DNA of 38,246 nt from positions 1 to 38,246 of the forward strand of contig JAMPXH010000032.1 of NCBI GenBank assembly GCA_023701285.1, given 5' to 3'. The position numbers and the translations under genes were made by a program. Positions within the stretch are counted from its first letter, which is position 1; the number at the start of each line of letters is the position of its first letter. Shown piece after piece: positions 1 to 19,671 of this stretch. Source of the DNA: Candidatus Didemnitutus sp. (GTDB lineage: Bacteria; Verrucomicrobiota; Verrucomicrobiia; Opitutales; Opitutaceae). The notes beneath the pieces are model-generated. The model was not told the origin of the DNA. It was given only the letters and a program-made list of their open reading frames with translations, and made no database searches.

Positions 1-3000
1 TCCGGAACGGGCGTGATCTGCTTGTCGGTGTCGACGTTGTAGGTGGTATTGTCGCCGGTCCAGCCGGTGAATACAACCTGGTTGAGCGGGGGCTCGTGGC
101 GGACGCCAGGAGTGTCGCGCGAGAGGAAATAATCGACGGTGTCCGTCCAGTTCACGACGTTGAGTGTGTGGTCGAGGCTGTCGAAGAAGAGGTTCTCGAT
201 CTCGAAGGTGGAGGAGCCGCTGAAGTCCAGGGTCGAGTCGCCGGTGACGGTGAGGGTGCCGAAGACGTGGTCGCCGTCGCCCATGTTGATGGTGCCGCCG
301 GCGAGGATGATGTTCACGTTCGGCGCGTAGATGTTGCTCGCGAGCGTGAGGGTGACGCCGACGCCGACGACGATGGTGCCGCTGCCGGTGAACTGGCCGG
401 ACCAGGTGGAGGTGGCGGCGAGGGAGAGTTCGCCGCCGCTGTTGAAGTCGATCATGCCCGCGCCGGCGATGGTGCCGACGCTCTGGGCGTAGGAGACGAG
501 GTCGACCGTGGCTCCGGAGGCGACGTTGAGGTCGATGGCGGAGTTGTTGAGCGAGTTGTTGGCGCCGAAGGCGAGCGTGCCGGCGTTGACGTTGACGTTG
601 CCGGAGAAGGTATTGGTGGAGTTGGACAGCGTGAGGGTGCCGGCGCCGTCCTTGGCGAGGGTGCTGGTGGAGGCGCCGGTGAGCTGGCCGGTGATGGTGG
701 TGTTGGCGGCGCCGCCGACGGTGAGCGTGTTCGCGCCGAGGGCGACGGTGTTGCCGAGGGTGAGCGTGCCGGAGTCGGAATTGATGCGGGCGGAGGAGGA
801 GGCGACCGTAATGGCACCGTTCCAGGTGTTGTTGCCGCTGATGTTGCGGAGGGCGCCGGTATTTAAGCCGTCGCCGGTGCCGCTGAGGGAGAGGGTCTCG
901 TTGCCGACGGTGATGTTGTTTTGGAGCTGAAGCTCCGCGCCGGTGTTGACGGTCGTGCCGGCGAGCGTGGAGCCGAGGGCGTTGTTATGGCGGATGTTCA
1001 GCACGCCATCCTCCACCGTGCTCGTGCCGGTGTAATTATTGTTGCCGGCGAGGATGACGGTGCCGGTGCCATCCTTGGTGAAGGTGCCGGCGGAGGTGCC
1101 GATGACGCCATTGATGGTGGTGTCGCCGGCGCCACCGACCGTGAGATTCTTGCTGGAGGCGACGATGCCGCCGTTGATGGTGAAGAGGCCGGCGTCGGTG
1201 TTGATGCGGGCGGCGTCGTTCAGCCAGATGGTGCCGGCCCAGGAGTTGTTGCCGCTGATGCTGCGGAGGGCGCCGGTCTGGCCGCCGTTGTAGCCGGTGC
1301 CGCTGAGCTTGAGGTATTCGAGGCCGATATCGAGGGAGTTGATGGCCGCGTCGCCGCTGCCGGTGTCGGGGGCGAGCTCGAGAGCGGCGCCGGAGGCGAC
1401 AACGGTGCCGCTGGTGGGATCGCCGGCACCGACCTGGCCGAGGGCGCGCTCGTGCTTGATGGTGACGATGCCGTCGTCGATCTGGGTGAGGCCGCCGTAG
1501 CCGACGGTGTTGTTGCTGGTAATGGTGAGCCGGCCGTCGCCCTGCTTGACGATGCCGCCGAAGTTGAGCTGGGCGGAGATGGTGAGGTCGCTGGTGGCGG
1601 CGCCGTCGGCGACGTTGATCACGCGGGAGGCGTCGGCAAGGGTGACGACGCCGCTGATGGTGGCTTCCTGGCTGGAGGCGAGCGTGGTGATGTTGCCGTT
1701 GAGTTCGAGGACGCCGGTGCCGGTCTTGATGCGGCCGCCTTCGAGGGTGATGGCACCGACGGTGTCGTCGCGGGAATTGAGATCGAGGAGGCCGTCGGAC
1801 TTGATCGTGATGGCGGAGGTGTTGGCGATCTTGTTGTCGGCGAGGCCGGTGCCGTAGACGACCTTGGCGCTCTCGGCGGCACCGGTGCCGTCGCCGATGA
1901 GGAGGTCGCCGAGGATGGTCTTGTCGATCATCGGGAAGTTGAGCGTATCGAGCACAAGCGTGCCGTCGCGGACGTCGGTGGTGCCGGTGTAGCGATTCTC
2001 GTCGCCGTAGAAGGTGACGGTGCCGGAGCCGGTCTTGATGAAACCGCCGGTATTGCCGGCGGCGCCGACGATGGAGTTGATGAGGATGTTGCCATCGCCG
2101 CCGACGGTGAGCGTGTTGCTGCCCATCGTGACGATGCCCGAGAAGTCGCCGGGGCCGATGGTGAGGAGCTGGCCGGCGGTGCTGGAGAGGATGGAGGCGT
2201 TGCCGGTGAGGGTGACGTTGCCGCTCCACATGTTGTTGCCGCTGACGCTCTCGAGGGTGCCGCCGAGGCTGAGCAGGCGGTTCGAGACCGTGATGTTGTT
2301 CTGGAGCTGGAGGGTCGCGCCGCTGCCGACGGTGACGGTGCCGGTGCCGGCACCGAGAGCGGTGTTGTTGCGAAGATTGACCGTGCCGGCGTTGACGGTG
2401 GTGTTGCCGGTGAAGGTGCTGGCGCTGTTGAGGGTGAGCGTGCCGGCGCCGTCCTTGGTGAGCGTGCCGCTGCCGGTGGCGAGGGAGCCGGTGACCGAAA
2501 CGTCGCCCGCGCCGGCGAAGGTGGTGTTGCGGTTGGTGCCGGTGAGGCCGTTGCTGAGGGTGAGCGTGCCGGCGTCGGACGCGAGGGTGGCGTTGTCCGA
2601 GAGCGTAACGGTCTGGTTGATGGTGTTGCTGCCGCTGAGATTGCGGATGGCGCCGGTGCCGGCCTCGCCGGTGCCGGCGATGCTGATGTTTTCGTAGAGG
2701 ATGGAGACGCCGCCCTGCAGGCCGAGCGTGGCGCCGGAGGCGACGGTGGTGCCGGCGGCCTGGGTGCCGAGGGCGTTGCCGTGCGCAGCGACGAGGGTGC
2801 CGTTGTCGATGTTGGTGGCGCCGGTATAACTGTTGTTGCCGGCGAAGGTGAGAGTGCCGTCGCCCTGCTTGGTGACGGTGGAGCCGTCGCCGTGAACTTG
2901 GGCGTTGAAAGTAACGTTGCCCGCGCCGCCGACAGTGAGGGCGTAGCCGTTCAGGTTCGTGTAGGAACCGAGCGTGAGCGTGCCGGCGGAGGAGTTGATC

Positions 3001-4525: not shown

Positions 4526-4587
4526 CCCAAATATAGGGTGAAACTCCTAGTTGTAAAAATCCCCGTGTTAACGGATAGGGTAAAATG
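4526..4587. promoter_or_regulatory. Paired ATAGGG elements in the divergent promoter region
   Basis: The 192-bp gap between the divergent giant repeat gene (start 4478) and the Ig-like gene (start 4671) holds two near-identical decamers, ATAGGGTGAA at 4533-4542 and ATAGGGTAAA at 4575-4584. They lie in the same orientation 42 bp apart, about four helical turns. The first is preceded by CCCAAAT. The same element occurs before the other exoprotein genes at 6715-6724, 15251-15260 and 19632-19641. It is read here as an operator or promoter element; the binding factor is unknown. Confidence 0.5.
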
Positions 4588-4670
4588 CCCATAAAGAGCT
4601 TGCGCGTTTACCGTGAATCGCCTCTACTTCCCTTCACCACGTCAGCCGTCACCCCTCGGACTCACCTGCC

Positions 4671-6497
4671 ATGAACTCACGTTTGCTCCGCCCGATTTCC
4701 CTCCTTGGCCTTTTGTTTGGCCTCACCACCACCTTGCTCGCGCGCGATGAGGGCCCCGCGGTCGCCTATTATCCGCAGACCGAAAACGTCGAGGGTGATC
4801 AACCGCTCTACCACACGTATGAGCTCGAAATCACCTCCCCGAGCAACCTGCCCGCGGGCTCGAACGTGGTGATCGATCCAGTCCTCTTCGTCATCCGCAA
4901 ACCGGACGGCGTCAGCGACGAGCAGGCGCTCAGCCACGTCACGATCGAATCCCTCGTCTTCACCGGGCCGACGCAGAAGCAATACGCGACCGTCGTGTGC
5001 GACTTCCCGGTCGGCACGGTGGCCGGCGAATACGCCTTCGGCATCCGCACGCCGGGCTGGGGCGTGACGGCCAACGACACCTTCGGCTTCATCAACGCTA
5101 AAGTCTTCCCGCCGCGCCCGCGCGGTCTCCCGACCGTGACGTTGAACACGCCGCTGGATGGCTCCGTCTTCACGTGGTATGCCGGCGGCGCTCCGGTGGC
5201 GGTCCCGGTCCAATTTTCCGCCACGGCACCGGAAGCCTCCCCGCTCACGAGCGTCGATGCCGACATCAGCGGCACGGCCGTCACCTTGACCGACGTCTCG
5301 GGCCTCGGCACGACAGCGGCTGAAGCGGGCGGCGTTTTCTATCTGGCCCAACCCGGCCTGTTCACGGTCACGGCCCGCGCCACCAACGACGTGGGCACGG
5401 CGATCGACACCGCGGAGTTCACGGTCCAAGTCGTGGCCCCGCCGCCGACCGTCACGATCGAGCAGCCTGCCGCCGGTTCGAGCTTCACCATCACCGAAGG
5501 TGGCACCCTCAGCGTGCCGTTCGCCTTCTCCGGCGCGAGCGTCTACGGCAACCTTTCCCAACTCACCGCCACGATCAATGACGTGCCGGTGGCCTTCACG
5601 CCTTCCGGCCTCGGCACCCTGAACGCCAGCGGCCTCGCCAACCTTCAGATCGACGCGGGCGGCACCTACGTGTTGTCCGTCTCGGCGACCAACCCCTACG
5701 GCACCGCCGCCGCGACCGGCTCCTTCACGGTCACCGTCGTCGAACCCACGCCGCCGCCGCCGACGGTCACGATCACCTCGCCGGCCAACGGCACCGTCAT
5801 CAACCGGGTCGCCGGTTCGCCCGCCACGGCCGTCCCCTACACCTTCACCGCGATCACCACCGCGCCCTGGACCATCAGCTCCGTCGGCGCCTCGCTCAGT
5901 GGCTCCACTTTGAGCGTTGTTCCGTCCGGTCTCGGCACGGCCACCGCCGGCGGCTCCGGCACCCTCTACGTTTCCACCCCCGGCACCTACTCGCTGGTGG
6001 CCACTGGCACCAGCGGCGGCTCGCATGCGGCCGATACGGTCTCGTTCACCGTCGTTGAAACCACGCCGCCGCCTCCCACGCCCGCTTGCGGCGTGAACTG
6101 GCTGCCCTCCGTCCAACTCGGCAAAGTCGTCAAGGGCGGCTCCACGGTCGACATCAAGTTCGAGCTCGATTGCAACGAGGAGTGGAGCGAAGACCGCAAC
6201 TGCGACGGCGATCCTGACTTTTATCCCGGCCAGCGCACCAAGTCCAAGGACCGCATCGACTACTCGGTCGTCATCGCGATCTACGAGATTTTCTCGAATG
6301 GCTCCTCCTCCACCCCGCAGCTCTTTCCTTACAATCCCGGCCCCAACGCCCCCGGCTACACCATCCAAGGTAACGACATGTATCACTTGAACTTCGTCAC
6401 CGCCAAGGGCGCCCGCCGGTATCAAGTCGAAATCTACCATAATCCGACGGGCAACGCACCGGTGCTGCTGGATTCCCGCCAGATTCGCACGAAGTAA
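4671..6497 (+). CDS. secreted protein with Ig-like repeats and C-terminal PxKF-like domain
   Basis: This 608-residue exported protein starts with a signal peptide (about residues 1-25, ending LLARDEG). A novel-looking domain follows at about 26-150, with conserved stretches such as YYPQTENVEGDQPLY and GEYAFGIRTPGWGV. Three Ig-like beta repeats of about 100 residues begin near 155, 258 and 363. Each opens with PTVTxxxPxxG, carries a GLGT motif and is joined by Pro-rich linkers. The C-terminal domain (about 470-608: GKVVKGGSTVDIKFEL, then YEIF and MYHLNF) resembles the PxKF domain of bacterial surface proteins. A short acidic loop (DRNCDGDPD) sits where the paralogue at 6755-8944 has a large insert. 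There is no PEP-CTERM tail. It is probably a soluble extracellular or periplasmic adhesin-like or structural protein; its function is unknown. It starts divergently from the giant gene at 4478 and ends in a strong terminator. Confidence 0.9.
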   Translation: MNSRLLRPISLLGLLFGLTTTLLARDEGPAVAYYPQTENVEGDQPLYHTYELEITSPSNLPAGSNVVIDPVLFVIRKPDGVSDEQALSHVTIESLVFTGPTQKQYATVVCDFPVGTVAGEYAFGIRTPGWGVTANDTFGFINAKVFPPRPRGLPTVTLNTPLDGSVFTWYAGGAPVAVPVQFSATAPEASPLTSVDADISGTAVTLTDVSGLGTTAAEAGGVFYLAQPGLFTVTARATNDVGTAIDTAEFTVQVVAPPPTVTIEQPAAGSSFTITEGGTLSVPFAFSGASVYGNLSQLTATINDVPVAFTPSGLGTLNASGLANLQIDAGGTYVLSVSATNPYGTAAATGSFTVTVVEPTPPPPTVTITSPANGTVINRVAGSPATAVPYTFTAITTAPWTISSVGASLSGSTLSVVPSGLGTATAGGSGTLYVSTPGTYSLVATGTSGGSHAADTVSFTVVETTPPPPTPACGVNWLPSVQLGKVVKGGSTVDIKFELDCNEEWSEDRNCDGDPDFYPGQRTKSKDRIDYSVVIAIYEIFSNGSSSTPQLFPYNPGPNAPGYTIQGNDMYHLNFVTAKGARRYQVEIYHNPTGNAPVLLDSRQIRTK

Positions 6498-6521
6498 CGC
6501 GAGCATCACCGCTTTCAACTC

Positions 6522-6552
6522 AGGCATGGCCGCAAGCCATGCCTTTTTGTTT
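6522..6552 (+). terminator. Rho-independent terminator after the first Ig-like gene
   Basis: A perfect 9-bp stem (AGGCATGGC at 6522-6530, GCCATGCCT at 6536-6544) with a 5-nt loop is followed by TTTTGTTT. It lies 25 bp after the stop codon at 6497 and separates the two paralogous plus-strand genes, so each is probably transcribed from its own promoter. Confidence 0.9.
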
Positions 6553-6651
6553 GCCCGGATGGAGTCCGGACAGGTCGCTGGGGCACGCGATTCATTGGCA
6601 ACGCGGAGCAGACCGCAGCGTCGCGATCCAACCTGCGTCTCCGGTTAAAGC

Positions 6652-6724
6652 CCCTACAAAAATAGGGCCATAATACCTATCTTAGGCTTGAGCTCATAGG
6701 CCCTAGCCGTAGGATTTACCCTAC
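6652..6724. promoter_or_regulatory. Dense CCTA/TAGG array before the second Ig-like gene
   Basis: Eight copies of CCTA or its complement TAGG fall within 72 bp, at 6653, 6663, 6676, 6683, 6697, 6702, 6710 and 6720. Several form inverted pairs, for example CCCTA-N6-TAGGG at 6652-6667. The last element, TTTACCCTAC (6715-6724), ends 30 nt before the ATG at 6755 and matches the elements in front of the giant repeat genes. The rest of the gap 6498-6754 holds only the upstream terminator. Confidence 0.5.
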
Positions 6725-6754
6725 AGCCTCACCGAAGCCAGCCCTCCTTCCTCC

Positions 6755-8944
6755 ATGCACTCCGCGCTCCTCCGCACGCTCACGTCCGTCCTCCTTGGTC
6801 TCGTCCTCCCGCTTTCGCTGCTCGCTCGCGATGAGGGCCCGGCGGTCGCCTATTACCCGCAAACCGAAAACGTCGAAGGCGACCAACCGCTCTACTACAC
6901 CTACGAGCTGGAGATCACCTCGCCGAGCAACCTCCCCGCGGGCACTGAGGTCGCGATCACGCCCGTGCTCTTCGTCATCCGCGCCCCAGCGGGTGTGAGC
7001 GATGCAGCCGCCCTGAGCCACGTCTCGATGAGCCCTTCGACCCTCGTCTTCACCGGCCCGGGCCAGAAAGTCTACACGACCGTCATTTCCGATTTCCCGG
7101 TCGGCTCCGTGGCCGGCGAATATGCCTTCGGCATCCGCACGCCGGGTTGGGGCGTCACCGCGGCCGACACCTTCGGCTTCATCAACGCCAAGGTCTTCCC
7201 TCCCCGCCAACGCGACGTGCCCTCCATCACGCTCAACACCCCGGCTGACGGCACCATCTACACCTGGACCGCCGGCGGACCGCCGGTGACCGTGCCCGTG
7301 CAATTTTCCGCCACCGCGCCCGTCAGCTCGCCCATCACCAGCGTCGATGCCGACATCAGCGGCACGGGCGTCAATCTGACCAGCGTCACCGGGCTCGGCA
7401 CCGGCGCCGTCGAGGCCGGCGGCCCCTTCTACATCTCCACTCCGGGTGTCTACACCGTGACCGCCCGCGCCACCAACGACGTCGGCACCAGCACCGATTC
7501 GGCCGAGATCACCGTCAACGTCGTCGCGCCTCCGCCCACCGTCGCCATCGCGCAACCGGCCAACGGCGCCAGCTTCACCGTCACCACCGGCGAGACGCTC
7601 ACGGTCCCCTTCGTTTTCTCCGGCACCAGCGTTTACGGCGGCATCACCCAGCTGACCGCCACCCTCAACGACCAAGCCGTCTCCTTCGCGCCCGCCGGCC
7701 TCGGCACGCTCGAAGCCACGGGCACGGCGGAGCTGTCCATCACGACGGGCGGCGTCTACGTTCTCTCCGTCTCCGCGAGCAACGACTACGGCACCTCCGC
7801 CACGATCGCCCAATTCACCGTCACCACCGTCGACCCGACCCCGCCGCCGCCGACCGTGACGATCACCTCGCCGGCGGACGGCACCGTCATCACCCGCGTC
7901 GCCGGCACTCCCGCCACCGCCGTGCCCTTCACCTTCACCGCCGAGATCGAGACCGGCTGGTCCATCAGCTCCATCGGCGCGACCCTGAACGGCCAACCCG
8001 TCGACGTCACCGCCAGCGGCCTCGGCACCGTCCTCGCCAACGGCAGCGGCACGCTCTCCGTCAGCGCGCCCGGCACCTACACGCTCGTCGCCACCGGCGA
8101 CAGCGCCGGCTCCTCCGCCGCCGCGTCCGTCATCTTCACGGTCACGGAGACCGCGCCTGCTTCCTCCTGCTGCATCAACTGGCTCCCGCCGATCTGCCTC
8201 GGCAAGGTCCAGCAAGGCGGCTCCGTGCTCCCCATCAAGTTCACCCTCCAGTGCTGCCAGCCGAAGGACTCCGATCACGAGTGCGTGAAGGACAAGGACC
8301 GTTGCGGCTCGGGCTGGGGTTGGGGCTGGGATCGCGACCGCGACGAGCGTTGCGACCGCCACGGTCATCGCAGCCAATGCGACGACCATGACCGCCGCGG
8401 CAAGGCCGCCGACCACCGCGAATGCTCCAAGGGCAAGTATCGCCGCGACGACTCCTGCGAGCGCCACGGTCACCGCAGCCGTTGCGACTCCGGCTACGAC
8501 GACCGCGAATGCTCCAGCAAGCGCAGCTACGATTACAGCCGCTACACCCGCTGCGACCGCCACGGCAGCCGCAGCCATTGCGACGAACACGACTACGGCC
8601 ACGGCCACGCGCATGGGCAGGGCCACAGCGACTGCACCGAGTGCAACCCCGACCACTGCGGCAAGCCCGGCCACAAACACAACTGGTGCGACACCCGCGA
8701 CACCACGGTCGTGATTTCCATCTACGAGATCTTCGCCAACGGCACCACCTCCGCACCGAAGCTCTACACCTACAGCCCGAACTCTCCCAACCCGCCCACC
8801 TACACCATCAACGGCGGTAACATGTATCACCTCAACTTCCCGACTGCCCGCGGCAAACACCGTTACCACATCGACGTCTACCGGCAGCCCGCCGGCAGCG
8901 CGACGCCGCAACTGGTCGGCACCAAGGAATTCACCACGAAGTGA
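6755..8944 (+). CDS. secreted Ig-like/PxKF-domain protein with Cys/His-rich insert
   Basis: This 729-residue exported protein is a paralogue of the one at 4671-6497, with the same order: signal peptide (to about residue 25), conserved N-terminal domain, three Ig-like repeats starting near 155, 260 and 365, and a C-terminal PxKF-like domain from about 470 (LPIKF motif). Inside that last domain an insert at about residues 500-648 holds 16 Cys and about 17 His among many Asp and Arg residues. It includes three copies of C-[DE]-R-H-G-x-R-S-x-C-D near residues 533, 568 and 600, a GWGWGW stretch, and a GHGHAHG run. After it the domain resumes (YEIFANG, MYHLNF) and ends FTTK. The insert looks suited to metal binding or disulfide crosslinking; this is an inference. 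The protein has no PEP-CTERM tail. It has its own upstream element array and a strong downstream terminator. Confidence 0.9.
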   Translation: MHSALLRTLTSVLLGLVLPLSLLARDEGPAVAYYPQTENVEGDQPLYYTYELEITSPSNLPAGTEVAITPVLFVIRAPAGVSDAAALSHVSMSPSTLVFTGPGQKVYTTVISDFPVGSVAGEYAFGIRTPGWGVTAADTFGFINAKVFPPRQRDVPSITLNTPADGTIYTWTAGGPPVTVPVQFSATAPVSSPITSVDADISGTGVNLTSVTGLGTGAVEAGGPFYISTPGVYTVTARATNDVGTSTDSAEITVNVVAPPPTVAIAQPANGASFTVTTGETLTVPFVFSGTSVYGGITQLTATLNDQAVSFAPAGLGTLEATGTAELSITTGGVYVLSVSASNDYGTSATIAQFTVTTVDPTPPPPTVTITSPADGTVITRVAGTPATAVPFTFTAEIETGWSISSIGATLNGQPVDVTASGLGTVLANGSGTLSVSAPGTYTLVATGDSAGSSAAASVIFTVTETAPASSCCINWLPPICLGKVQQGGSVLPIKFTLQCCQPKDSDHECVKDKDRCGSGWGWGWDRDRDERCDRHGHRSQCDDHDRRGKAADHRECSKGKYRRDDSCERHGHRSRCDSGYDDRECSSKRSYDYSRYTRCDRHGSRSHCDEHDYGHGHAHGQGHSDCTECNPDHCGKPGHKHNWCDTRDTTVVISIYEIFANGTTSAPKLYTYSPNSPNPPTYTINGGNMYHLNFPTARGKHRYHIDVYRQPAGSATPQLVGTKEFTTK

Positions 8945-8980
8945 TTCCCTTCCGTCCGGCCCTGCCGGTCGGCTCTCTTC

Positions 8981-9012
8981 ACCGCACGGCGCCAGCCGTG
9001 CGGTTTCTTTTT
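8981..9012 (+). terminator. Rho-independent terminator after the second Ig-like gene
   Basis: A perfect 10-bp stem (ACCGCACGGC at 8981-8990, GCCGTGCGGT at 8995-9004) with loop GCCA is followed by TTCTTTTT. It lies between the convergent ends of the plus-strand gene (stop at 8944) and the minus-strand giant gene (stop at 9048). The T-tract favours termination of the plus-strand transcript. Confidence 0.92.
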
Positions 9013-9047
9013 GCCCCGCGCCCGTGTCGCGGCCCCGCGCTCCACGC

Positions 9048-12000
9048 TCAAGCGCCGCTCTGCCGCGCGTGCGCGGCCCGACGCCGGCGACGCTTCCAGC
9101 CGAAATACAGCAGCCCGGCGCCGATCAGCATGGCGCCGTAAGTCGATGGCTCCGGCACGGGCGTGATCTGCTGGTCATACGCCAACCATTGGGTATCGCC
9201 GGAGAAACCCGTGAACGAGACCTGACTCAAGGGCGGCACACCGGGCTCGCCCGGATCGGTCGACGTCGTGAAATAATCCACCGCGTCCATCCAGTTCGCC
9301 ACGACGAGCGTGCGCGATGTGTTGTCGAACGTCAGCACCCCGACGTGCAGGCTCGCGTCGCCCATGAAATCCACCACGGAATCCGCCGTCACGTTCAGCC
9401 CGCCGAACGTGTGGTCGTGTCCGTCGAGATTCAGCGTGCCGCCCGCCAGCGTGATCGTGAGGTTGGCCGCGTTGAAATCCGCCCCGAGGGTCAGCGTCAC
9501 GCCCGCGCCGACGATCAACTCGCCGCTGCCGGCGAAGGCACCGGCGAAGGTCGCCGATCCCGCGAGGGTCAGCTGCCCGCCTTCGCCGAAGTCGATCAAC
9601 CCCGCACCGGCCAGCGTGCCGATGCTCTGCGCAAAACCGGCCAGCGAGACCGTCGCACCGGCGTCGACCGTCAGGCCCGACGTGGAGCCGAGGGCTCCGC
9701 CCGCCCCGAGTTCGATCGCCCCGGCAAGGACCTGCGTCGCGCCACTGTAGGTGTTGGCGCCGCTGAGCGTCAGCGTGCCTGCGCCTTCCTTCGTCAACGA
9801 GCCGCTGCCGGATAACACGCCGCTGTAGGTCGCATTCGTGCCCTGGTCGAAGGTCACCGTCGCCTGGTTGACGATGTTGCCCTGCAACCCGGCCGCCGAG
9901 CCGCGCAGCGTGCCGGCGTTCACCGTGGTGCCGCCGCTGTAGGTGTTCGTCCCGCTCAACGTGAGCGTGCCGGCACCTTCCTTCGTCAGCGAACCCGTGC
10001 CTGACATCGCGCCGGTATAGGTGCCGGCGGTCGCTTGGTCGAAGACGACCGCGGCTTGGTTGACGATGTCGCCCTGCAAACTGGTCGCGCTGCCGCGGAG
10101 CGTGCCGGCCGCGACCGTGGTGCCGCCGCTGTAAGTGTTGGCACCGCTGAGCGTGAGTGTGCCGTCGCCGGTCTTGGTGAAGGTGCCCGCGCCGGAAATC
10201 GCCCCGGAAAGCGTGGAGTCGTAGCCGTTCGCATCGAACGTGCCGCCACCGGATGCGATCGTGATATTGCGCGCCGAGGTGAGGGCCGCCGTCGTGCGCA
10301 GCGTGCCGCCGTCAAACGTCACGCCGCCGGAGGCGCCGCCGAGATTGGCATCGGCGGCGACGCTCACGACGCCGGCCGTGAGCGTGGTGCCGCCGGTGTA
10401 GGTGTTGGTGCCGGAAAGCGTCAGCGTGCCCGTGCCGTCCATGCGGATGCCGCCAGCGCCGGCGATCGCCGAAGCGAGACTCACATCCTCGGAACCGGCG
10501 ACGGAGAGCGTGTAGCCGTTGTTCAGCAAGGCCGCGCCCGTGTGCGCCAGCGCACCGACGTCGGCCGTCCACGTCTGGTTCGCGCTGAGCGCGATGTCGA
10601 CGTTCAGCGTCTGCGTGGCGGTCGATTGATTGTTGATGCCACCACCGCCGACCGTGAGCGCATCGCCCGTGCTGCTGTTGAGCGTGAAGGCGCCGGCATC
10701 GGCGCGGAACAGCAGGCTGCTCACCTGGAACGCGCCGTTCATGTCCGTCGTCGTCTTCGCCACGCCGGCCATGACGATGGCCTTCTTCGATCCGATGGCC
10801 GGCGCGATGTCGCCGGCCCAGTTGTTTGCCTTCGTCCAATCGTCCTGCCCCGAAAGCGGGCCGCTGTTCTGGCCGCCGTCCCACACGAAGGTCGGGATGG
10901 GCGACAGTGTGTAGTAGCTCCCGTAGGACCCGACCACGACGGGCGTGTCGGACAACACCGCGCCGATGCCGACGTTGAGGTTGGCGAAGAAGACGTTGTC
11001 GAGAAAGGCTTGGCTGACGGTGTTCACGGCGACGCCGAAGACGTCGATGCCGTCCGTCCAGTTCGCGACCGTGAGCGTGCCGCTGTGCGTGCCGACGCTG
11101 CTGAAGACGAAGTGATTGGCGGTGCCGACGGCGCCGAAATCGATCGTGGCTCCGGTGAAGCCGAGCACGTTCACACGTTCGGAGAAGGTGCCGCCGAGCG
11201 CGAGCGCCGCGCCGGAGCCGAGCGTGAGGTTGCTGGCGTCGGCGATGACGTTGCTGTTCCCGAGCTGCAGGGTGCCGGCGCCGACGGTGGTCGTGCCGGT
11301 GTAGGTGTTGGCGCCGCTGAGGGTGAACGTGCCGGCGCCCTGCTTGGTCAGCCCGCCGGTGCCGGAGATGACGCCGGCGAAACTCGTGGAACCGCCGTTG
11401 CCGCCGGTCGTGAGCGTGCCGGAGCCGAGTTGCACGGCCGCCGCGGTGTTGGCGGAGGCGAGCGAGCCGATCGTGTCGGACTGGTTGTTGAGGTTGAGCA
11501 CCGGCGTGCCGCCGGAGGCGAGCGTGACGGCGGAGGTGTCGCCGATCTGGTTGGCGTTCACGAGACGCACGGTCGCAGCGCCGGCGCCATTGCCGATGAC
11601 AAGATTACCGGACACGGCCACGACACCGCTGCTCTTGGCGAGGTCGAGCGTGCCGGACTCCAGCGTGGTCACGCCGGTGTAGGTGTTCGCGCCAGTGCCG
11701 CTGAGGGTGAAGTTGCCGGCCGCGACCGTCACCTGACCGGTGCCGCTGATGGCACCGGCGTAGGCATTCGTGCCGGAGTCGCTGCGCAGGGTGCCGTGCA
11801 GGGTGAGCGCCTCGGCGCCGACGCTGATGCTGTTCTCGAGCTGGAGCGTGGCGCCGCTCGCGACGGTGGTCCCGCCGCCGACGGTGCCGAGCGCGGTCGA
11901 ATTCCGCGCGATGAGCGTGCCGGCATTGATCGTCGTCGCACCCGTGTAGGTGTTGGCGCCGGAGAGCGTCAACGTGCCGGTGCCTTCCTTGGTGAAGGAG

Positions 12001-15000
12001 CTGGAGCCGCTGCCGCCGATGACGCCGGCGAAGGTGGTCGAGGTGCCGTCGCCGCCGGTGCGCAGGCTGCCGCCGTTGCCGAGCAACACGGAGGCGGCGG
12101 TGTTGGTGGACGAGAGGGAGCCGATGGTCTCCGTGCGGCCGTTGACATTGAGCGTGGGCGTGCCGCCGGCGGAGAGCACGACGCTGCTCGTGTCGGCGAT
12201 CTGCTCGTTGTTCACGATGCGCACGGTCGCGGCCCCGCTGCCGTCGCCGATCTGGAGGTTGCCCGCGAGGGCGGTGATGCCGGCGGACTTGGCGAGGTCG
12301 AGCGTGCCGCTGTTCACGGTCGTGGTGCCGCTGAAGGTGTTGGCCGCGGTGCCTTCGAGGGAGAGCGTGCCGCCGGCCACGACCACGGTGCCACTGCCGG
12401 AGATGGCGCCGCCGTAGGCGTTGGTGCCGGAGGCGTTGCGCAGCGTGCCGTCGAGCGCGAGCGCCTCGGCGCCGACGCTGATGCCGTTCTCCAGTTGCAG
12501 CGTGGCGCCGGCGCTGGCGGCGGTCCCGGCGGCCGTGCTGCCGAGCGCCGAGGAATGGCGCAGCACGACGGTGCCTTCGTTGATCGTGGTCGCGCCGCCG
12601 TAGGAATTGTTGCCCGCGAGGACGAGCGTGTGCGCGCCGACCTTGGTCAGGCCACCGGTGCCGGAGAGCGCGCCGGAGAGCGTGAGTGCGCCACTGCCGG
12701 TGGTCTCGACGATCGTGGTGGTGTTGAAGGCGATCGGGGCGGTGATGGTCTGCGCATTGCTGGACAGCTGGATGATGCTCGGGACCGAGCCGCCGAAGGT
12801 CAGCTGGCTGCCGCCGCCCGAGGCGGAGAGCGTGAAGGCGGCGGCATCGGCGTCGAAGCGCAGCGTGTTGACGCTGTAGCTGCCGTTCATCACGGGCGCG
12901 GTGCGCGTGGCGCCGCCGAAGGCGAGCTTGAGGCTGAAACTCCCGACCGGAGCGGTGTCGCCCGACCAGTTGGCGCCGGTGCTCCAGTTGTTGTTCCCGC
13001 CGCCGCCATCCCAGGTTTTGAAGGGCGTGTTGTCCGCCACGATGAAATCCCAGGTGCCGCCGTAGCCGGCGAGAGTCTGGCCCGTGGCGCCGATCACGCC
13101 GCCGCCGATGCCGTAGAAATAGACGCCGCTGAGAAAACCGCCCTCGACACCGGCGGCACCCGATTGGAAAGCGAACACGTCGCCTTCGCCGGCGTTGAAA
13201 TTGTTGATCGTGAGCGTGCCGGTGCTCGCACCGCCGCCGGTGAAGAGGAAGTAGTTCGCCGCCGCGGCCATGCCGTAGTCGATGATCGCGGTGTGATACG
13301 CGAGCGAGCCGACCTGCACGGAATGTCCGTCCAGGGCGAGCGTGGTCGCGGTCTGGAGCGTGAGGTCGCTGGCGGCGGAGAGCGCATCGTCGGCGCCGAG
13401 CGCCAGGGTGCCGGCGGCGACGGTCGTCGCGCCGGTGTGGGTGTTGTCGCCGCTGAGTGTGAGCGTGCCCGCGCCCTGCTTCGTCACGTCACCGGTGCCG
13501 GAAATGACACCGGCATAAGTGCCGTTGCCCGCTTGGTCGAAGACGAGCGTGGCGTCGTTGCCGATGTCGCCGACCAGGCTCGTGCTCGTGCCGCGCAGCG
13601 TGCCGGCGCTGACCGTGGTGCCACCGCTGTAGGTGTTGGCCCCGCTGAGCGTGAGCGTGCCACTGCCGGTCTTCACGAGGCCGCCCGTGCCGGAGATGAC
13701 ACCGGAGAAGGCGGTCGAAGCACCGGTGCCGCCGCTGGTGAGCGTGAACGCCCCGAGGGCGATCGCGCCGCTGCCGGCGATGGAGCCGACGGTCTCGTCG
13801 GCTGCGGCGAGTTGCAGGGTCGCACCGCCCGCGAGCGTGACGGCGGTCGCATCGGCGAGGGCACCGGCCGTGCCGAGGGCGAGGGTGCCGGCATCGATCT
13901 GCGTCGCACCGGTGTAGGTGTTGGCGCCGCTGAGCGTGAGTGTGCCGGCACCGGTCTTCACGAGGGTGCCGGCGCCCGACACGACACCGGCGTAGGTGCC
14001 GTTGGCGGCTTGATCGAAGGCGAGCGTCGCTTGGTTGAGAAAATCGCCCTGCAGACTCGTCGTCGTGCCACGCAGCGTGCCGGCGCTGACCGTGGTGCCG
14101 CCGCTGTAGGTGTTGGCGCCGCTGAGCGTGAGCGTGCCGGCGCCGGCCTTCACGAGGGCGCCGGTGCCGGAGAGCACGCCGGAAAACTCCGTCGTGGCCC
14201 CCGTGCCGCCGGTCGTGAGCGTGTGCGCGCCGAGCGCGACCGCACCCGCGCCAGCGAGGGAGCCGATCGTCTCGTGGCCGGCGGCGAGCTGAAGCGTGGC
14301 CGGCGCGGCGACGGTCACGGCCGTGGTGTCGCTGAGGGCTCCGGCGATCCCGAGCGCGAGCGTGCCGGCGTTGAGCTGCGTCGCGCCGGTGTAGGTGTTG
14401 GCGTTGGTGAGAGTGAGCGTGCCGGCGCCGTTCTTCGTCAGCGTGCCGGTGCCGGACAGGATGCTCGCGTAGGTGCCGTTGGCGGTTTGGTCGAAGATGA
14501 CGGCGGATTGGTTGGCGATGTTGCCCTGCAGGCTCGTGGTCGTGCCGCGCAGCGTGCCGGCGCTCACCGTGGTGCCGCCGCTGTAGGTGTTGGCGCCGCT
14601 GAGCGTGAGCGTGCCGGTGCCGGTCTTCACCAGTGCGCCGGTGCCGGTGATGGCGCCGTTCGCGGTGGTGTTGGCGTTGCCCGTGAGCGTGAGGGTGAAG
14701 GACGCGAGATCGATCGCGCCGCCGAAGACGAGGTCGGCGGTGTTCGCGCGCCAGGATTGCGCGGCCGCCAGCACGAGGGCGTTGTCGATGGTCTGGGTCT
14801 GCGCGGAGTCGTTCGCGATGGCGTAGGTCGTGGAGGTGCCGTCAAGGGTGAGCGCGCTGCCGTAAATCGAGAAGGCGCCGGCAGCAGCATCGAAGAGCAG
14901 CGAGTTCAGGCTCCACGCCGTGTCGGCCTGCGCCGTGAGTTTGATGCTGCCGGTGAAGACGAGGTCTGCCGTGCCGTTGTTGGCGACGTTGCCGTTCGGG

Positions 15001-15221
15001 TTCCAATTCTGCTGGAGCGACCAGCGGTCCTGCGCGGGATGCCCGCCGTCCCAGACAAACACCACGGCACGCACCGATGGCGCCAGCCCAAGCAAAACGC
15101 TTGCGACAAGCCATCGGGAAGAGCACGCGCGAAGGCCCAGCCAACCGAAAAAACGTGGGACGCTGTGGCGCGATGAAGTGGTGGAAGACGCCTTCATCCC
15201 AATATGGAGCGTGCCCCTCAC
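9048..15221 (-). CDS. giant autotransporter-repeat PEP-CTERM exoprotein, three-module
   Basis: This 2,057-residue secreted protein has a signal peptide (hydrophobic WLVASVLLGLAPSVRA, cleavage before VVFVWDGG). The start could be ATG at 15221 or 15197; the latter trims eight residues. The body is beta-strand repeats of the GAGTLTLSGANTYSGGTT type. WDGG...NW openings occur near residues 58, 735 and 1444. Before each new opening, and again before the tail, comes a domain with a hydrophobic strand, a DVF/DYF-like motif and a short Phe/Tyr-rich segment. The protein therefore looks like three complete exoproteins fused in line. Within the first module, a unit of about 160 residues recurs near residues 210, 369 and 529. 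The C-terminus is a PEP-CTERM tail: VPEPSTYGAMLIGAG, a membrane helix ending LYFGW, then an Arg cluster. In known systems an exosortase processes such tails at the cell envelope. No exosortase gene is in this window. Confidence 0.93.
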   Translation of the reverse strand: MRGTLHIGMKASSTTSSRHSVPRFFGWLGLRACSSRWLVASVLLGLAPSVRAVVFVWDGGHPAQDRWSLQQNWNPNGNVANNGTADLVFTGSIKLTAQADTAWSLNSLLFDAAAGAFSIYGSALTLDGTSTTYAIANDSAQTQTIDNALVLAAAQSWRANTADLVFGGAIDLASFTLTLTGNANTTANGAITGTGALVKTGTGTLTLSGANTYSGGTTVSAGTLRGTTTSLQGNIANQSAVIFDQTANGTYASILSGTGTLTKNGAGTLTLTNANTYTGATQLNAGTLALGIAGALSDTTAVTVAAPATLQLAAGHETIGSLAGAGAVALGAHTLTTGGTGATTEFSGVLSGTGALVKAGAGTLTLSGANTYSGGTTVSAGTLRGTTTSLQGDFLNQATLAFDQAANGTYAGVVSGAGTLVKTGAGTLTLSGANTYTGATQIDAGTLALGTAGALADATAVTLAGGATLQLAAADETVGSIAGSGAIALGAFTLTSGGTGASTAFSGVISGTGGLVKTGSGTLTLSGANTYSGGTTVSAGTLRGTSTSLVGDIGNDATLVFDQAGNGTYAGVISGTGDVTKQGAGTLTLSGDNTHTGATTVAAGTLALGADDALSAASDLTLQTATTLALDGHSVQVGSLAYHTAIIDYGMAAAANYFLFTGGGASTGTLTINNFNAGEGDVFAFQSGAAGVEGGFLSGVYFYGIGGGVIGATGQTLAGYGGTWDFIVADNTPFKTWDGGGGNNNWSTGANWSGDTAPVGSFSLKLAFGGATRTAPVMNGSYSVNTLRFDADAAAFTLSASGGGSQLTFGGSVPSIIQLSSNAQTITAPIAFNTTTIVETTGSGALTLSGALSGTGGLTKVGAHTLVLAGNNSYGGATTINEGTVVLRHSSALGSTAAGTAASAGATLQLENGISVGAEALALDGTLRNASGTNAYGGAISGSGTVVVAGGTLSLEGTAANTFSGTTTVNSGTLDLAKSAGITALAGNLQIGDGSGAATVRIVNNEQIADTSSVVLSAGGTPTLNVNGRTETIGSLSSTNTAASVLLGNGGSLRTGGDGTSTTFAGVIGGSGSSSFTKEGTGTLTLSGANTYTGATTINAGTLIARNSTALGTVGGGTTVASGATLQLENSISVGAEALTLHGTLRSDSGTNAYAGAISGTGQVTVAAGNFTLSGTGANTYTGVTTLESGTLDLAKSSGVVAVSGNLVIGNGAGAATVRLVNANQIGDTSAVTLASGGTPVLNLNNQSDTIGSLASANTAAAVQLGSGTLTTGGNGGSTSFAGVISGTGGLTKQGAGTFTLSGANTYTGTTTVGAGTLQLGNSNVIADASNLTLGSGAALALGGTFSERVNVLGFTGATIDFGAVGTANHFVFSSVGTHSGTLTVANWTDGIDVFGVAVNTVSQAFLDNVFFANLNVGIGAVLSDTPVVVGSYGSYYTLSPIPTFVWDGGQNSGPLSGQDDWTKANNWAGDIAPAIGSKKAIVMAGVAKTTTDMNGAFQVSSLLFRADAGAFTLNSSTGDALTVGGGGINNQSTATQTLNVDIALSANQTWTADVGALAHTGAALLNNGYTLSVAGSEDVSLASAIAGAGGIRMDGTGTLTLSGTNTYTGGTTLTAGVVSVAADANLGGASGGVTFDGGTLRTTAALTSARNITIASGGGTFDANGYDSTLSGAISGAGTFTKTGDGTLTLSGANTYSGGTTVAAGTLRGSATSLQGDIVNQAAVVFDQATAGTYTGAMSGTGSLTKEGAGTLTLSGTNTYSGGTTVNAGTLRGSAAGLQGNIVNQATVTFDQGTNATYSGVLSGSGSLTKEGAGTLTLSGANTYSGATQVLAGAIELGAGGALGSTSGLTVDAGATVSLAGFAQSIGTLAGAGLIDFGEGGQLTLAGSATFAGAFAGSGELIVGAGVTLTLGADFNAANLTITLAGGTLNLDGHDHTFGGLNVTADSVVDFMGDASLHVGVLTFDNTSRTLVVANWMDAVDYFTTSTDPGEPGVPPLSQVSFTGFSGDTQWLAYDQQITPVPEPSTYGAMLIGAGLLYFGWKRRRRRAAHARQSGA

Positions 15222-15250
15222 GGCACGAGTGGCAATCCGGAGCGGCCGAT

Positions 15251-15290
15251 ATAGGGCAAAGCACTACACGGCCCGGTCTATTCAGCCCTA
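15251..15290. promoter_or_regulatory. ATAGGG-type elements upstream of the three-module exoprotein gene
   Basis: The 136-bp gap between the start at 15221 and the next gene's stop at 15358 holds ATAGGGCAAA at 15251-15260. Read on the minus strand this is TTTGCCCTAT, ending 29 nt before the ATG. An inverted copy, TTCAGCCCTA, lies at 15281-15290 and is followed by CCGAATTTTGGG. These match the elements at 4533, 4575, 6715 and 19632. No terminator hairpin was recognised for the upstream lectin-headed gene. Confidence 0.5.
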
Positions 15291-15357
15291 CCGAATTTTG
15301 GGAAATCGGCGTAATTCTCCCGCCAGCAGCGAAGCCCCGCGCGAGAGCGTCGCGCCG

Positions 15358-18300
15358 TCAGACCGCGGTGCGCTTGCGGCGCTTCCAACCGAAGTAGAGC
15401 AGGCCGGCGCCGATCAGCATGGCGCCGTAGGTCGACGGCTCGGGCACCGGCGTGATGCGCACGTAGGTGTCGTCGTATTCCTGCCAGTAGGAGCCGGGAC
15501 CGTAGCCCTCGAACTGGATCTGACCGAGGATGCCGGGGAGGTTCGGCAGGTCGGTGATCTTCACGAGGAGAAAATCGGTGAACTCGATCCAGTTGCGGAT
15601 GTAGAGCGTGCTGTCGGCGGCGATGCTGAGCGAATCGAGGAAGAGGAAGTTCGGCGAGCAGGGGTTGCCGCCGGCGAAATCGATCACGGCATTGCCGGAA
15701 ACGGAGAGGTTGGCGAAGGTCTCGGTGATGCCGCTGGAGGAGCCGTCGAGCCGGAGGATGGCCTCGCCGCTGTGATTGCCGCCGTCGAGGGTGACGTTGG
15801 CGGTGTCGGCAATCTGCTCGTTGGCGGCGATGACGAGCGCGTCGGTGCCACGTCCGTCGCCGACCGCGACGTTGCCGGCGATGGCGGTGGTGCCGGCGTC
15901 CTTGGCGAGGACGAGTGTGCCGTGGTTGACGGTGGTGACGCCGGTGTAGGTGTTGGCGGAGGCCCCGGAGAGGGTGAGCGTGCCGTCGCCGGTCTTGGTG
16001 AGGCCGCGCGCGCCGGAGTTGTCGGCGATGACGGAGCTGATGGTGAGACCGCCGGAGCCGTAGACGTGCGTCACGAGGTCATCCATGCCCGTGCCGGTGC
16101 GCAACGTGCCGCCGCTGATGATGGAGCCGGTGGCGCCGTTGGAGAGGAGACCGCCGCTGTTGATCGTGAGGGTGTTCGAGCCGAGGGCGACGTCGATGCC
16201 GGAGCCGAGCTGGAGCGAGCCGACGGTGCGGTTGGCGGTGAGCGTCTGGTCGGAGGTGGGCGCGGCGTTGATGGAGGTGGTCCAGGAGCTCTGCGTCGTG
16301 TTGGTGCCGGCGACGGCGTAGATGCCGTCGGGGCTGCTGTTGTTCACGGAGGCGTAGCCCGCGAAAGCGGCGCCGTTGTTGACGGTGGCGTAGCCGAGGA
16401 CGTTCGACGTGAGCGTGGGCGCGCTGGTGAAGACGATGCGGGGATTGTCGCCGGTGTTGCCGAGCGTGCCGCTGGCGTTGTAGGTGAAGTCGACCGTCGC
16501 GCCGGCGTTGCGGGTGAGCGAGGCGAAGGTGAGCTGCGCGGAGCCGCTGGAGTCGCCGCGCTGGGAGTTCACGGTGTTGGCGCCACCGGCGAGGGTGAGC
16601 GCGCCGACGGTCTCGCTGGTGTTGTTGTTCCCGGTGCGGCCGAGGAGGCTGATGGTGCCGCCGTCGAGCGTGACGGTGGCGGAATTGTTGACGCGGTTGG
16701 TGTTGTTGGTCGCGCCGTTGTCCATCGTGAACGTGCCGCCCTGGTCCACGGTGATGCCGGTGACGCTGGCGAGGGTGCCGCTGGTGCGAAGGCGGAACTC
16801 GGCGCCCGAGACCGTGACCGTGCCGGCGAGGGTGTTGGCCACGATGCTGTCGAGGCGGCCGTCGCCGGCGACGGTGAGGCTGCCGTTGCTGACGGCGCGG
16901 TTGAGGCGGGCGTCCTCGACATCGGCGCCGTCGAGGACGCGGATGGTGCGGTTGCCGCCGGCGAGATCGAGGCCGCTGTCCCAGATGAGGGTGTTGCTCG
17001 CGGAGTTGGAGCCGAGCACGAGAGCGGAGCCGTCGGCGACGAAATTGGCGGAGTTCCACGCCACGGCGGCGTTGCTGTTGTTGATGAGGACGGTGCGGTC
17101 GCCGCCGGAGGCGGAGAAGCCGCCGTCGCCGGTCCAGCGGACCTGGCCGGCACCGGTGCCGAGCGAGCCGGTGAAGTCGCCGGTGAGCTCGCGGACGCCG
17201 CCGGCGAGGACGAGGTTGGAGCTGCTGGAAATGTTGCCGCGGAGCGCGCCGGCGCGGATCTCGGTGTCGCCGGCGTAGGTGTTGGTGCCGCTGAGGTTCA
17301 GCGTGCCGGCACCGGTCTTGACGAGGCCGCCGTTGGTGAGGTTGCCGGAGAGCGTGCCGTCGACGGCGGCGCTGCCGTCGAACACGCGGACCTCGCGCTG
17401 GGCGCCGCCGAAGTTGATGGCGTTGGTGAGGGTGAGGTTGGCGTCGGCGTAATCGGAGGAGAGGACGAGGGCGTTGCCGGTGGGGACGAAGCTGCCGGAG
17501 TTCCACGTGAGCTGGCCGTTGGCGGTGCCGGTGGAATTGGTTAGCGTGACGGTGCGGTCGGCGCCGGAGGCGGAGAAGCCGCCGTCGCCGGTCCACTGGA
17601 CCTGGTCGGAGCCGGTGCCGAGGCGGCGGGTGAAGGTCGTGCCGACGCCGATCTCGAGCACGCCGCCGGCGAGCTGGAGGTTGCCGCCGCTGTAGCCGCT
17701 GGTGGAGAAACCGCCGGCGAGGGCGTTCTCGCCGCCTGTGATGCGGAGGACGCCGCCGGCGATGACGGTGGCACCGTTCCAATCGTTGGTGGTGTTGGAG
17801 AGGGTGACGACGCCTTCGCCGCGCTTGGTGAGGCTGAAGGTGCCGGCGCCGTCGCTGACCTTGCCGCTGAGCGTGAGGTTGCCCTCGCGGGAGCCGACGG
17901 AGGCGTTGGCGCCAAGGGTGACGTTGCCGGCGAAGGTGTTGTTGCCGCCGTCGTTGTAGAGTGCGCCGGCGAGGCCTTCCTGGCCGCGGAGGATGCCGTC
18001 GCCCTTGATGGTGACGGACTCAGTGGTGGCGTAATTGAAGCCGCCGCGGAGCGCGAGGGTGGCGCCGTCGTTGACGGTGGTGGTGCCGGCGGTGGTGCCG
18101 AGGGCGCCGTCGGTCGTGACGACGGTGAGGCCCTTGTTGAGGGTGACGTTGCCGGTCCAGGGCGTGGCGCCGTCGGCGTTATTGTTGTTGAGGGTGACGA
18201 TGCCGTCGCCGTTTTTGACGAGGTTGCCGGAGCCGATGATGTCGGAGTTGAAGTTGACGGCGCCCCAGCCGTTGACGGTGAGGTCCTTGCCGGCGGTGGT

Positions 18301-19587
18301 GATGGTGCCGTTGATGCACAGCACGCTGAAGGAGTAGTTGTTGATGCGGAGCTGCTCGGTGAGCGTGATGGGGACGTTGATCTTATGCTGGGCCTGCGCG
18401 CCGTTGTAGTCGTTGACGTTGATGGAGGGCAGGCCGGCGAGCACGGGGTCGCCGAAGGTGACGGCGCCGGTGCCGCCGAGCGTGTAGTTGTAGCTCGAGT
18501 CGAAGGTGAGCGAGTTGAGCTGCTGGGTGGAGTTGAGGGCGACGGTCTGCGGGCCGGAGGCGGGCTTGTTGCCGAAGAGGATGTCGGCGTTCACGCCGGG
18601 AAGCGCATCGCCATGCCAGTTGGTGGCCGTAGCCCAGGCGGTGGTGCCGGCGCCGTTGTCCCACTCGTTGGCGGTGGGCTGCCAGGGCGTCATCGAGACC
18701 TGCAGGTTGCGGATCTCGTGGATCTCCGTGGCGCTGCCGGTCGCACCGGTGAAGCCGAGCTTGAAGGTCTCGGGCCGGTCGTAGGTGGAGAGGTCGGCGG
18801 TGAACGCGGTCGTGTAGGTGCCGGAAGCGCCGAACTTCATCTCGACGGTAAGCAGGTTGTTCGCGTCGAGTGTCAGACGGAAGGAGCGATAATCCACGCC
18901 GGTCTGGTCAGGGCGCGTGGTGGAGCTGGGGAAATCCATCTGCTGCGGCAGCGCGGCGCTGGCGGCGATGAAAGCGTAGTTGCTGCTCTCGGGGCCGCGC
19001 ACCGCGATGCGGTTCGGATAGAGCGTGGAGTCGACCGCCGGGCCGGGACCGGCGATGCCGCCGACGCGGCCTTCGTTGTTGTTCGAGTAGTTGCCCCAGT
19101 TGTCGAAGGCGAAGCCGAGGTAGCCTCCGGTGATGCCATCGATGTTGGTCTTCTGCGCGTAGCCCATCGATCCGCCGTAGGCTCCGGCCGCGAAGCTCTG
19201 GGCGCTGACGTTGCCGTCGATCAGGAAAAAGGTGATGCCGTCCGCGCCCGAGCCGTTGTAGAACGCATACTCCATCTCGATCTGGATCTGCGCATTGACG
19301 GAGAAGATCGCGTCGTCGAGCAGCGCGTAGGTCGACTGGTTGGTCAGATTTTCCGTGAGCCGCAGCCAACCCTGGCCATCGGGATCGATGTTCTGCGCGG
19401 CGGTCAGATAAGGGATGGTCGAGCCGTTGCTGCCGCCGAAGACCCACCCGCCCGCCGTCGAACCTTTGAAGTCGGTGGAGAACGTGATTTGCGCCTGCGC
19501 CCGCACTCCCGCCAACAAGGCCAACGCCAGCACCACCGCCATCAGGGCGGAGCGGCAGCAGCAGCGGGGGATAATTGTTTGGGCCAT
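15358..19587 (-). CDS. L-type lectin-headed autotransporter-repeat PEP-CTERM exoprotein
   Basis: This protein has 1,409 residues. The start is ATG at 19587, giving a signal peptide (core LMAVVLALALLAGVRAQAQ, cleavage near residue 33). Residues about 33-289 resemble a bacterial L-type (legume-like) lectin domain. DGITFFL near residue 116 and GYLGFAFDNWGNYSN near 145-159 are typical of this fold's core strands and carbohydrate/metal-binding loop. From about residue 297 (NEWDNGAG...NW) the protein becomes beta-strand repeats of the GxGTLTLSG...NTYxGxTT type, with two similar blocks containing WTGDGGFSASG. A pre-tail domain (IRNWIEFTDFLL, GQIQFEGYG) leads to VPEPSTYGAMLIGAG, a hydrophobic helix and a Lys/Arg end. 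That tail is identical to the one at 9048-15221 through FGWKRR. The likely role is an exported, envelope-anchored sugar-binding surface protein. The carbohydrate ligand cannot be read from sequence. Confidence 0.92.
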   Translation of the reverse strand: MAQTIIPRCCCRSALMAVVLALALLAGVRAQAQITFSTDFKGSTAGGWVFGGSNGSTIPYLTAAQNIDPDGQGWLRLTENLTNQSTYALLDDAIFSVNAQIQIEMEYAFYNGSGADGITFFLIDGNVSAQSFAAGAYGGSMGYAQKTNIDGITGGYLGFAFDNWGNYSNNNEGRVGGIAGPGPAVDSTLYPNRIAVRGPESSNYAFIAASAALPQQMDFPSSTTRPDQTGVDYRSFRLTLDANNLLTVEMKFGASGTYTTAFTADLSTYDRPETFKLGFTGATGSATEIHEIRNLQVSMTPWQPTANEWDNGAGTTAWATATNWHGDALPGVNADILFGNKPASGPQTVALNSTQQLNSLTFDSSYNYTLGGTGAVTFGDPVLAGLPSINVNDYNGAQAQHKINVPITLTEQLRINNYSFSVLCINGTITTAGKDLTVNGWGAVNFNSDIIGSGNLVKNGDGIVTLNNNNADGATPWTGNVTLNKGLTVVTTDGALGTTAGTTTVNDGATLALRGGFNYATTESVTIKGDGILRGQEGLAGALYNDGGNNTFAGNVTLGANASVGSREGNLTLSGKVSDGAGTFSLTKRGEGVVTLSNTTNDWNGATVIAGGVLRITGGENALAGGFSTSGYSGGNLQLAGGVLEIGVGTTFTRRLGTGSDQVQWTGDGGFSASGADRTVTLTNSTGTANGQLTWNSGSFVPTGNALVLSSDYADANLTLTNAINFGGAQREVRVFDGSAAVDGTLSGNLTNGGLVKTGAGTLNLSGTNTYAGDTEIRAGALRGNISSSSNLVLAGGVRELTGDFTGSLGTGAGQVRWTGDGGFSASGGDRTVLINNSNAAVAWNSANFVADGSALVLGSNSASNTLIWDSGLDLAGGNRTIRVLDGADVEDARLNRAVSNGSLTVAGDGRLDSIVANTLAGTVTVSGAEFRLRTSGTLASVTGITVDQGGTFTMDNGATNNTNRVNNSATVTLDGGTISLLGRTGNNNTSETVGALTLAGGANTVNSQRGDSSGSAQLTFASLTRNAGATVDFTYNASGTLGNTGDNPRIVFTSAPTLTSNVLGYATVNNGAAFAGYASVNNSSPDGIYAVAGTNTTQSSWTTSINAAPTSDQTLTANRTVGSLQLGSGIDVALGSNTLTINSGGLLSNGATGSIISGGTLRTGTGMDDLVTHVYGSGGLTISSVIADNSGARGLTKTGDGTLTLSGASANTYTGVTTVNHGTLVLAKDAGTTAIAGNVAVGDGRGTDALVIAANEQIADTANVTLDGGNHSGEAILRLDGSSSGITETFANLSVSGNAVIDFAGGNPCSPNFLFLDSLSIAADSTLYIRNWIEFTDFLLVKITDLPNLPGILGQIQFEGYGPGSYWQEYDDTYVRITPVPEPSTYGAMLIGAGLLYFGWKRRKRTAV

Positions 19588-19625
19588 CTGGCAGTAGCTA
19601 ACCCCCTTTCGGCCCTGCGTCGCAA

Positions 19626-19648
19626 CCCAAAATTAGGGTATTCACCCC
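19626..19648. promoter_or_regulatory. TAGGGT element upstream of the lectin-headed exoprotein gene
   Basis: CCCAAAATTAGGGTATT at 19626-19642 closely matches CCCAAATATAGGGTGAA at 4526-4542, the site before the first giant gene, and is followed by CACCCC. On the minus strand it reads AATACCCTAATTTTGGG, and the core AATACCCTAA ends 44 nt before the ATG at 19587. The gap between the genes (19588-19671) contains little else. Confidence 0.5.
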
Positions 19649-19671
19649 AGCCGATTGGCGCTTGCTAGCTC

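Follow-up and report, generated by a model that had tools for sequence, protein, structure and literature searches.

The window analysed here is a complete contig (C166; 38,246 nucleotides) of Candidatus Didemnitutus sp., a member of the Opitutaceae whose genome of 4.02 Mb is 95% complete and divided among 220 contigs. The genes and features under discussion are as follows:

Gene A, 1–4478, minus strand: PATR (passenger-repeat) exoprotein, truncated at the contig end, recognized by PATR matches and by a start with a signal peptide.
Gene B, 4671–6497, plus strand: Ig/PKD-like exoprotein, divergent from gene A.
Intrinsic terminator, 6522–6544, plus strand: between genes B and C.
Gene C, 6755–8944, plus strand: Ig/PKD-like, a paralogue of gene B (69% identity).
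Gene D, 9048–15221 (alternative start 15197), minus strand: PATR and PEP-CTERM exoprotein, 136 nt below gene E on the same strand.
Gene E, 15358–19587, minus strand: exoprotein with PATR repeats and PEP-CTERM.

Passenger-associated repeats are found in genes A, D and E and PEP-CTERM ends in genes D and E, the N-terminal region of gene E being conserved across 18 genera. As the terminator at 6522–6544 stands between genes B and C, gene C needs a promoter of its own. These two genes are tandem paralogues with Asp-rich or His-rich stretches in their C-terminal regions, and a third copy elsewhere in the genome (L137, contig C187) repeats the divergent exoprotein/Ig-like layout. Very long open reading frames (921–4316 and 10035–15176, both on the plus strand) run antisense to the passenger-repeat genes. 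Their translations are rich in G, A, V and R, a comparison of the 921–4316 frame with Pfam gave zero matches, and both are probably mirror frames of GC-rich repeats.

Five copies of a decamer, RTAGGGYRAA, had been described upstream of these exoprotein genes (at 4533, 4575, 6715–6724 in reverse, 15251 and 19632), and all five are present there. Their distances to the start codons were also correctly given, being about 54 nt for gene A (ATG at 4478), 30 nt for gene C, about 44 nt for gene E and, for gene D, 29 nt to the GTG at 15221 or 53 nt to the ATG at 15197. The bare decamer is a weak motif, and the genome-wide enrichment expected of it is absent, with 18 exact matches in 4.02 Mb, 13 of them GTAGGGCGAA, against 15 for a reversed control. 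Within the window, nine matches with at most one mismatch were found for 4.5 expected (a number reached by 2 of 100 shuffles), and the AT-rich forms of the decamer cluster, four out of five lying inside the window, but the pattern itself was built from these forms. It could be argued that such similar decamers arose by chance in AT-rich promoter DNA or were copied between paralogues, as the genome-wide count equals that of the mirror control and genes B and C are indeed paralogues. We consider this highly improbable given the spacing peak, the intergenic bias and the conservation before unrelated genes in many genera that are presented below.

The decamer is not the unit of recognition that it first seemed to be. 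At 4533, 4575 and 19632 it forms one half-site of a 16-bp palindrome, TAGGGK-NWWN-MCCCTA, and the copies at 6715 and 15251 lack a second half. For two target families, which together supply 42 sites, the consensus is TAGGGtttAtaCCCTAgtT, its two central positions being A or T. A palindrome of this form is what a dimeric protein would be expected to bind. The sites of the window are:

Operator 1, 4534–4549, no strand assigned: TAGGGTGAAACTCCTA; proximal for gene A and distal for gene B; 21.3 bits, the best in the window.
Operator 2, 4576–4591, no strand assigned: TAGGGTAAAATGCCCA; proximal for gene B; 10.6 bits, third best, per-position p of 2.4e-6.
Operator 3, 19634–19649, no strand assigned: TAGGGTATTCACCCCA (TGGGGTGAATACCCTA in the orientation of gene E); 17.8 bits, second best.
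Possible degenerate operator of gene C, 6663–6679, plus strand: TAGGG-N8-CCTA, one base over the consensus length.
Decamer before gene C, 6715–6724, minus strand: no second half-site; best overlapping dyad 4.2 bits.
Decamer before gene D, 15251–15260, plus strand: no second half-site; dyad score of −4.7 bits.

The scores come from a profile trained on 17 sites preceding other (non-exoprotein) kinds of genes in relatives, for which the three best sites of the window are those at 4534, 19634 and 4576; this test is only partly independent, because the training sites were gathered with the pattern first seen in the window. The best site in a random sequence as long as the window averages 6.5 bits, with a maximum of 11.4 bits in 30 trials. 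Taken alone, the site at 4576 falls in the range of the best chance match per 38 kb, and it is its conservation in relatives that supports it: the arrangement of two sites seen for operators 1 and 2, which are 42 bp (four helical turns) apart, recurs at L080, L081, L085 and L086. Upstream of gene B orthologues the element is conserved as well, with scores between 13.6 and 22 bits in relatives. The sequence at 6663–6679 fails the 16-bp profile and is possibly an operator variant for gene C, its 8-nt gap to a TTG (6688) being that found for genes A, B and E. The decamers at 6715 and 15251 probably owe their presence to chance. Upstream of gene D no operator site was found, and this gene may be transcribed by read-through from gene E.

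The spacing of the two half-sites is fixed. Among the matches listed when 13 genomes of the genus were scanned for TAGGG-N2..15-CCYAT, at least 35 sites (29 distinct) have the N7 spacing against 1 to 11 (mean 6.4) for each other spacing; these counts leave out the divergent genome G011, include orthologous sites and enter palindromes twice, and the sites are not independent events. With AT-rich spacers only, the matches listed comprise 23 N7 sites against about 2.5 at other spacings. The same scan shows no N7 peak for the dyad in G011, a genome of the genus that may have lost the regulator. Outside the window, TAGGG-N7-CCYA is found upstream of gene B homologues in several genera and of the third paralogue on C187. 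Of 30 unselected matches to TAGGGN7CCYAK, 26 are intergenic (mirror pattern: 14) and 14 lie at most 150 nt from a start (mirror pattern: 4). Because TAG is rare in genes, the mirror control favours the motif, and a comparison of spacings was preferred as the cleaner test.

Across 80 genomes of the Opitutaceae, the perfect palindrome TAGGGKNNNNMCCCTA is present in 31 of 49 genera. All 30 unselected perfect palindromes of the family are intergenic (background 25%, p of 9e-19), and none of 40 inspected sites lies within a called gene. In other families of the order the palindrome does not rise above its control. The element thus combines a fixed spacing of its half-sites, an intergenic position upstream of genes and conservation before orthologues in other genera. 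Chance is refuted for the three dyads of the window and stays the best reading for the decamers at 6715 and 15251. The operator is real and apparently undescribed, with borders, a (smaller) membership in the window and a regulon that differ from those of the original prediction.

The most conserved target lies on another contig, beyond what could be seen from the window. It is an operon coding for a FecR-domain protein, a BBP2/EpsL-like beta-barrel, a Wza-type export protein and a Wzz/Wzc-type tyrosine kinase (as assigned by Pfam and NCBIfam), with TAGGGTTTACACCCTA as its operator; the contig that bears it also carries an exosortase gene. Taking one FecR orthologue per Opitutaceae genome, a site scoring 8.4 bits or more is found 22–138 nt before the start in 26 of the 29 that are readable. 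In nearly all genera examined, this polysaccharide-export operon (L276–L287) adjoins leuS and is found near HtrA-like, LpxI-like and Dus-like genes. In the exoprotein family to which gene E belongs, 16 of 21 members carry a site of at least 10 bits, for 0.77 in shuffles. Asparagine-synthase-like amidotransferases are preceded by a site in six genomes; the two that were compared with TIGR03108 (XrtA/PEP-CTERM amidotransferase) scored 404–409 bits, below the cut-off of 817. A Wzm/Wzt polysaccharide exporter (L138 and L144, from two species) carries a pair of operators separated by about 108 bp. Further recurrent targets are PEP-CTERM proteins of the ice-binding-like and passenger-repeat kinds and sensor kinases with periplasmic-binding domains, orthologous sites being, here as above, not independent events.

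The proposal of a shared cis element is thus partly supported, with two of its five copies excluded: the element links Ig-like and beta-strand-repeat exoprotein genes. As the element is shared by both kinds of genes, a single regulator is the natural reading, and slime export and surface proteins are probably controlled together. With a dyad of fixed spacing, intergenic and conserved before its target families, we think it likely that the 16-bp operator is bound by one dimeric transcription factor, coordinating an exopolysaccharide-export operon with a specific set of matrix exoproteins in the Opitutaceae.

It had also been suggested that PEP-CTERM proteins are controlled as a class. Genes D and E do carry PEP-CTERM, as do the targets L148, L153 and L160 in other genomes. 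Yet, of 22 testable PEP-CTERM genes elsewhere in the genome, only two have a near match within 200 nt upstream, for 1.97 expected, and nine other passenger-repeat genes of the genome (on C137, C149, C61, C8, C35, C16 and C115) are without the operator. With no excess of sites before genes of either kind, class-wide control is rejected for this genome, and we give it almost no credence. The element is best read as the operator of a specific exopolysaccharide and matrix regulon, neither a general PEP-CTERM switch nor a sigma-factor site.

The position of the operator relative to promoter-like sequences differs between groups of targets. In the window, these sequences are:

Core promoter of gene A, 4530–4557, minus strand: TTTACA (4557–4552), 16 nt, TATATT (4535–4530); overlapped by operator 1.
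Promoter elements of gene B, 4600–4628, plus strand: −35-like TTGCGC (4600) and −10-like TCTACT (4623), 17 nt apart.
−35-like TTGCGA of gene E, 19620–19625, minus strand: at +24 from operator 3.

In polysaccharide promoters, CTTG is found 7–12 nt before the operator, with its peak at −11 to −7 (15 of 25 CTTG fall in one 10-nt bin, for none in the flanking bins), and the operator would therefore lie within the promoter spacer. In exoprotein promoters, the CTTG peak is at +15 to +24 from the operator. Within the family of gene E, a TTG lies exactly at +24 from the first base of the operator in 8 of 17 promoters, a result matched by none of 500 shuffles; in the window, the TTG is likewise at +24 for genes A, B and E, leaving a gap of 8 nt after the operator. 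For gene B, this TTG begins the −35-like TTGCGC, counted from operator 2; among its relatives, the phase of CTTGC is kept in L080 and L081 and is at most 3 nt off in L082, L083, L085, L086 and on C187. The promoter of gene A, with 10 of 12 consensus matches, is the sole promoter-like match between 4300 and 6800, for 0.3 expected. Several promoters have weak −10 boxes, and in a simple search for the best promoter only 7 of 26 polysaccharide promoters have the operator in their spacer; for −35 and −10 sequences, the positional counts of TTG and CTTG are clearer than this search.

The fixed distance to TTG in some families and the CTTGC sequence could be taken as parts of a core promoter read by an alternative sigma factor, as first proposed, either an extracytoplasmic one or sigma-54 acting with PrsR, and many sigma-54 activator-like proteins are indeed found in the genome. 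However, the element is a palindrome, found before the TTG in some target groups and after it in others, and no sigma-54 consensus (−24/−12, allowing up to three mismatches) is present in the promoters of genes A to E. A sigma-factor site accordingly seems unlikely to us. A sigma-54 site accompanied by PrsK/PrsR is known before the PEP-CTERM genes of Proteobacteria (Haft et al. 2006, PMC1569441), and pepA of Aquincola is RpoN-dependent (PMC9850573). The Opitutaceae element is similar in being a conserved element, found through comparative genomics, before exoprotein genes tied to exopolysaccharide/exosortase systems. It differs in its sequence, in its palindromic form, in having no −24/−12 promoter and in targeting the polysaccharide operon itself rather than PEP-CTERM genes in general.

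PrsR itself is distributed differently from the operator. The best match to it in the genome studied here reaches 393 bits, below the cut-off of 502.6, and it exceeds this cut-off in 9 of 61 Opitutaceae genomes. The operator precedes the FecR operon in none of the eight such genomes listed and in 26 of the other 53 (p of 0.016, uncorrected for kinship). The sigma-54/PrsR candidate is rejected, given the lack of a −24/−12 promoter, the lack of a PrsR above cut-off in the genome itself, the lack of the FecR-operon operator in the PrsR genomes listed and the presence of a site before only 2 of 22 PEP-CTERM genes. Among the 61 genomes, a PrsR above cut-off and the palindromic operator almost exclude each other, which suggests that they are two alternative solutions to one job.

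The sign of regulation can be judged from geometry only, and with less assurance than the binding of a dimer. In the polysaccharide operon, an operator that follows a conserved CTTG(C/A) −35, within the spacer, would let its protein block RNA polymerase as a repressor does. In the families of genes B and E, an operator just upstream of the TTG −35 (24 nt from its first base to the TTG, centre at about −52) would rather suit an activator. Either reading suits gene A, whose operator is overlapped by a good core promoter. A single dual regulator would be the simplest account, repressing the export operon between −35 and −10 and activating the giant exoproteins from a fixed site upstream of −35; it would switch the cell from slime export to surface-protein production and back, or tune both together.

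The main rival of a dual regulator is a plain repressor that would overlap core promoters at all targets, the TTG at +24 of exoprotein genes being secondary. The operator does lie inside the promoter at polysaccharide operons, at gene A (TTTACA-16-TATATT) and at L148 (TTGTGC-17-TATATA), but the strict +24 phase in the family of gene E and in genes A, B and E would be needless for repression. We regard a plain repressor as a serious possibility, somewhat short of an even chance. The fuller proposal, of a matrix switch common to the family, with an evolutionary origin separate from that of PrsK/PrsR, in which a dual regulator has the slime and the protein coat made in turn, is rather unlikely and is put forward as speculation.

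Under either sign, the protein that reads the operator is presumably a dimer. Sites of NarL/FixJ-type response regulators are 7-2-7 inverted repeats, examples being RcsB, BvgA and GerE with TRGG/CCTA half-sites, and those of the CRP family are 16 bp long. The operator resembles both in being a 16-bp inverted repeat with an outer TA and an A/T centre, but its half-site, TAGGG, exactly matches none of them. By function alone, it can be likened to the matrix master regulators VpsT/VpsR of Vibrio and CsgD of enteric bacteria, which join polysaccharide and matrix-protein genes: one regulator would serve both kinds of genes, working like these proteins and not as a member of their group. Within the phylum, the LexA motif of Verrucomicrobia is reportedly TGTTC-N4-GAACA. 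This other palindromic operator (Erill et al. 2016, as cited in PMC8565304) differs from ours in its motif and in its DNA-repair targets. A search of the literature for an element of this kind in Opitutus or Verrucomicrobia found nothing relevant described. As a kind, a transcription-factor regulon is well known; the element, its set of targets and its family-wide conservation appear to be new.

The 2006 paper describes its motif as common to Proteobacteria only, with further motifs still to be found, and the control of matrix genes linked to PEP-CTERM and exosortase outside Proteobacteria was left open there (PMC1569441). For the Opitutaceae, the present analysis supplies an operator, a list of targets, a geometry and a bait sequence for the regulator, and it leads to the prediction that, in this family, specific surface proteins are co-regulated with polysaccharide export. 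Around the FecR operon of 12 genomes, a search for the regulator met only leuS, HtrA-like proteases and LpxI-like and Dus-like genes, and no constant regulator. Beside operator sites there are, repeatedly, genes that encode sensor kinases or binding proteins carrying NMT1- or SBP-type domains (L139, L146, L145, L326 and L293), and these are possible signal inputs of the regulon.
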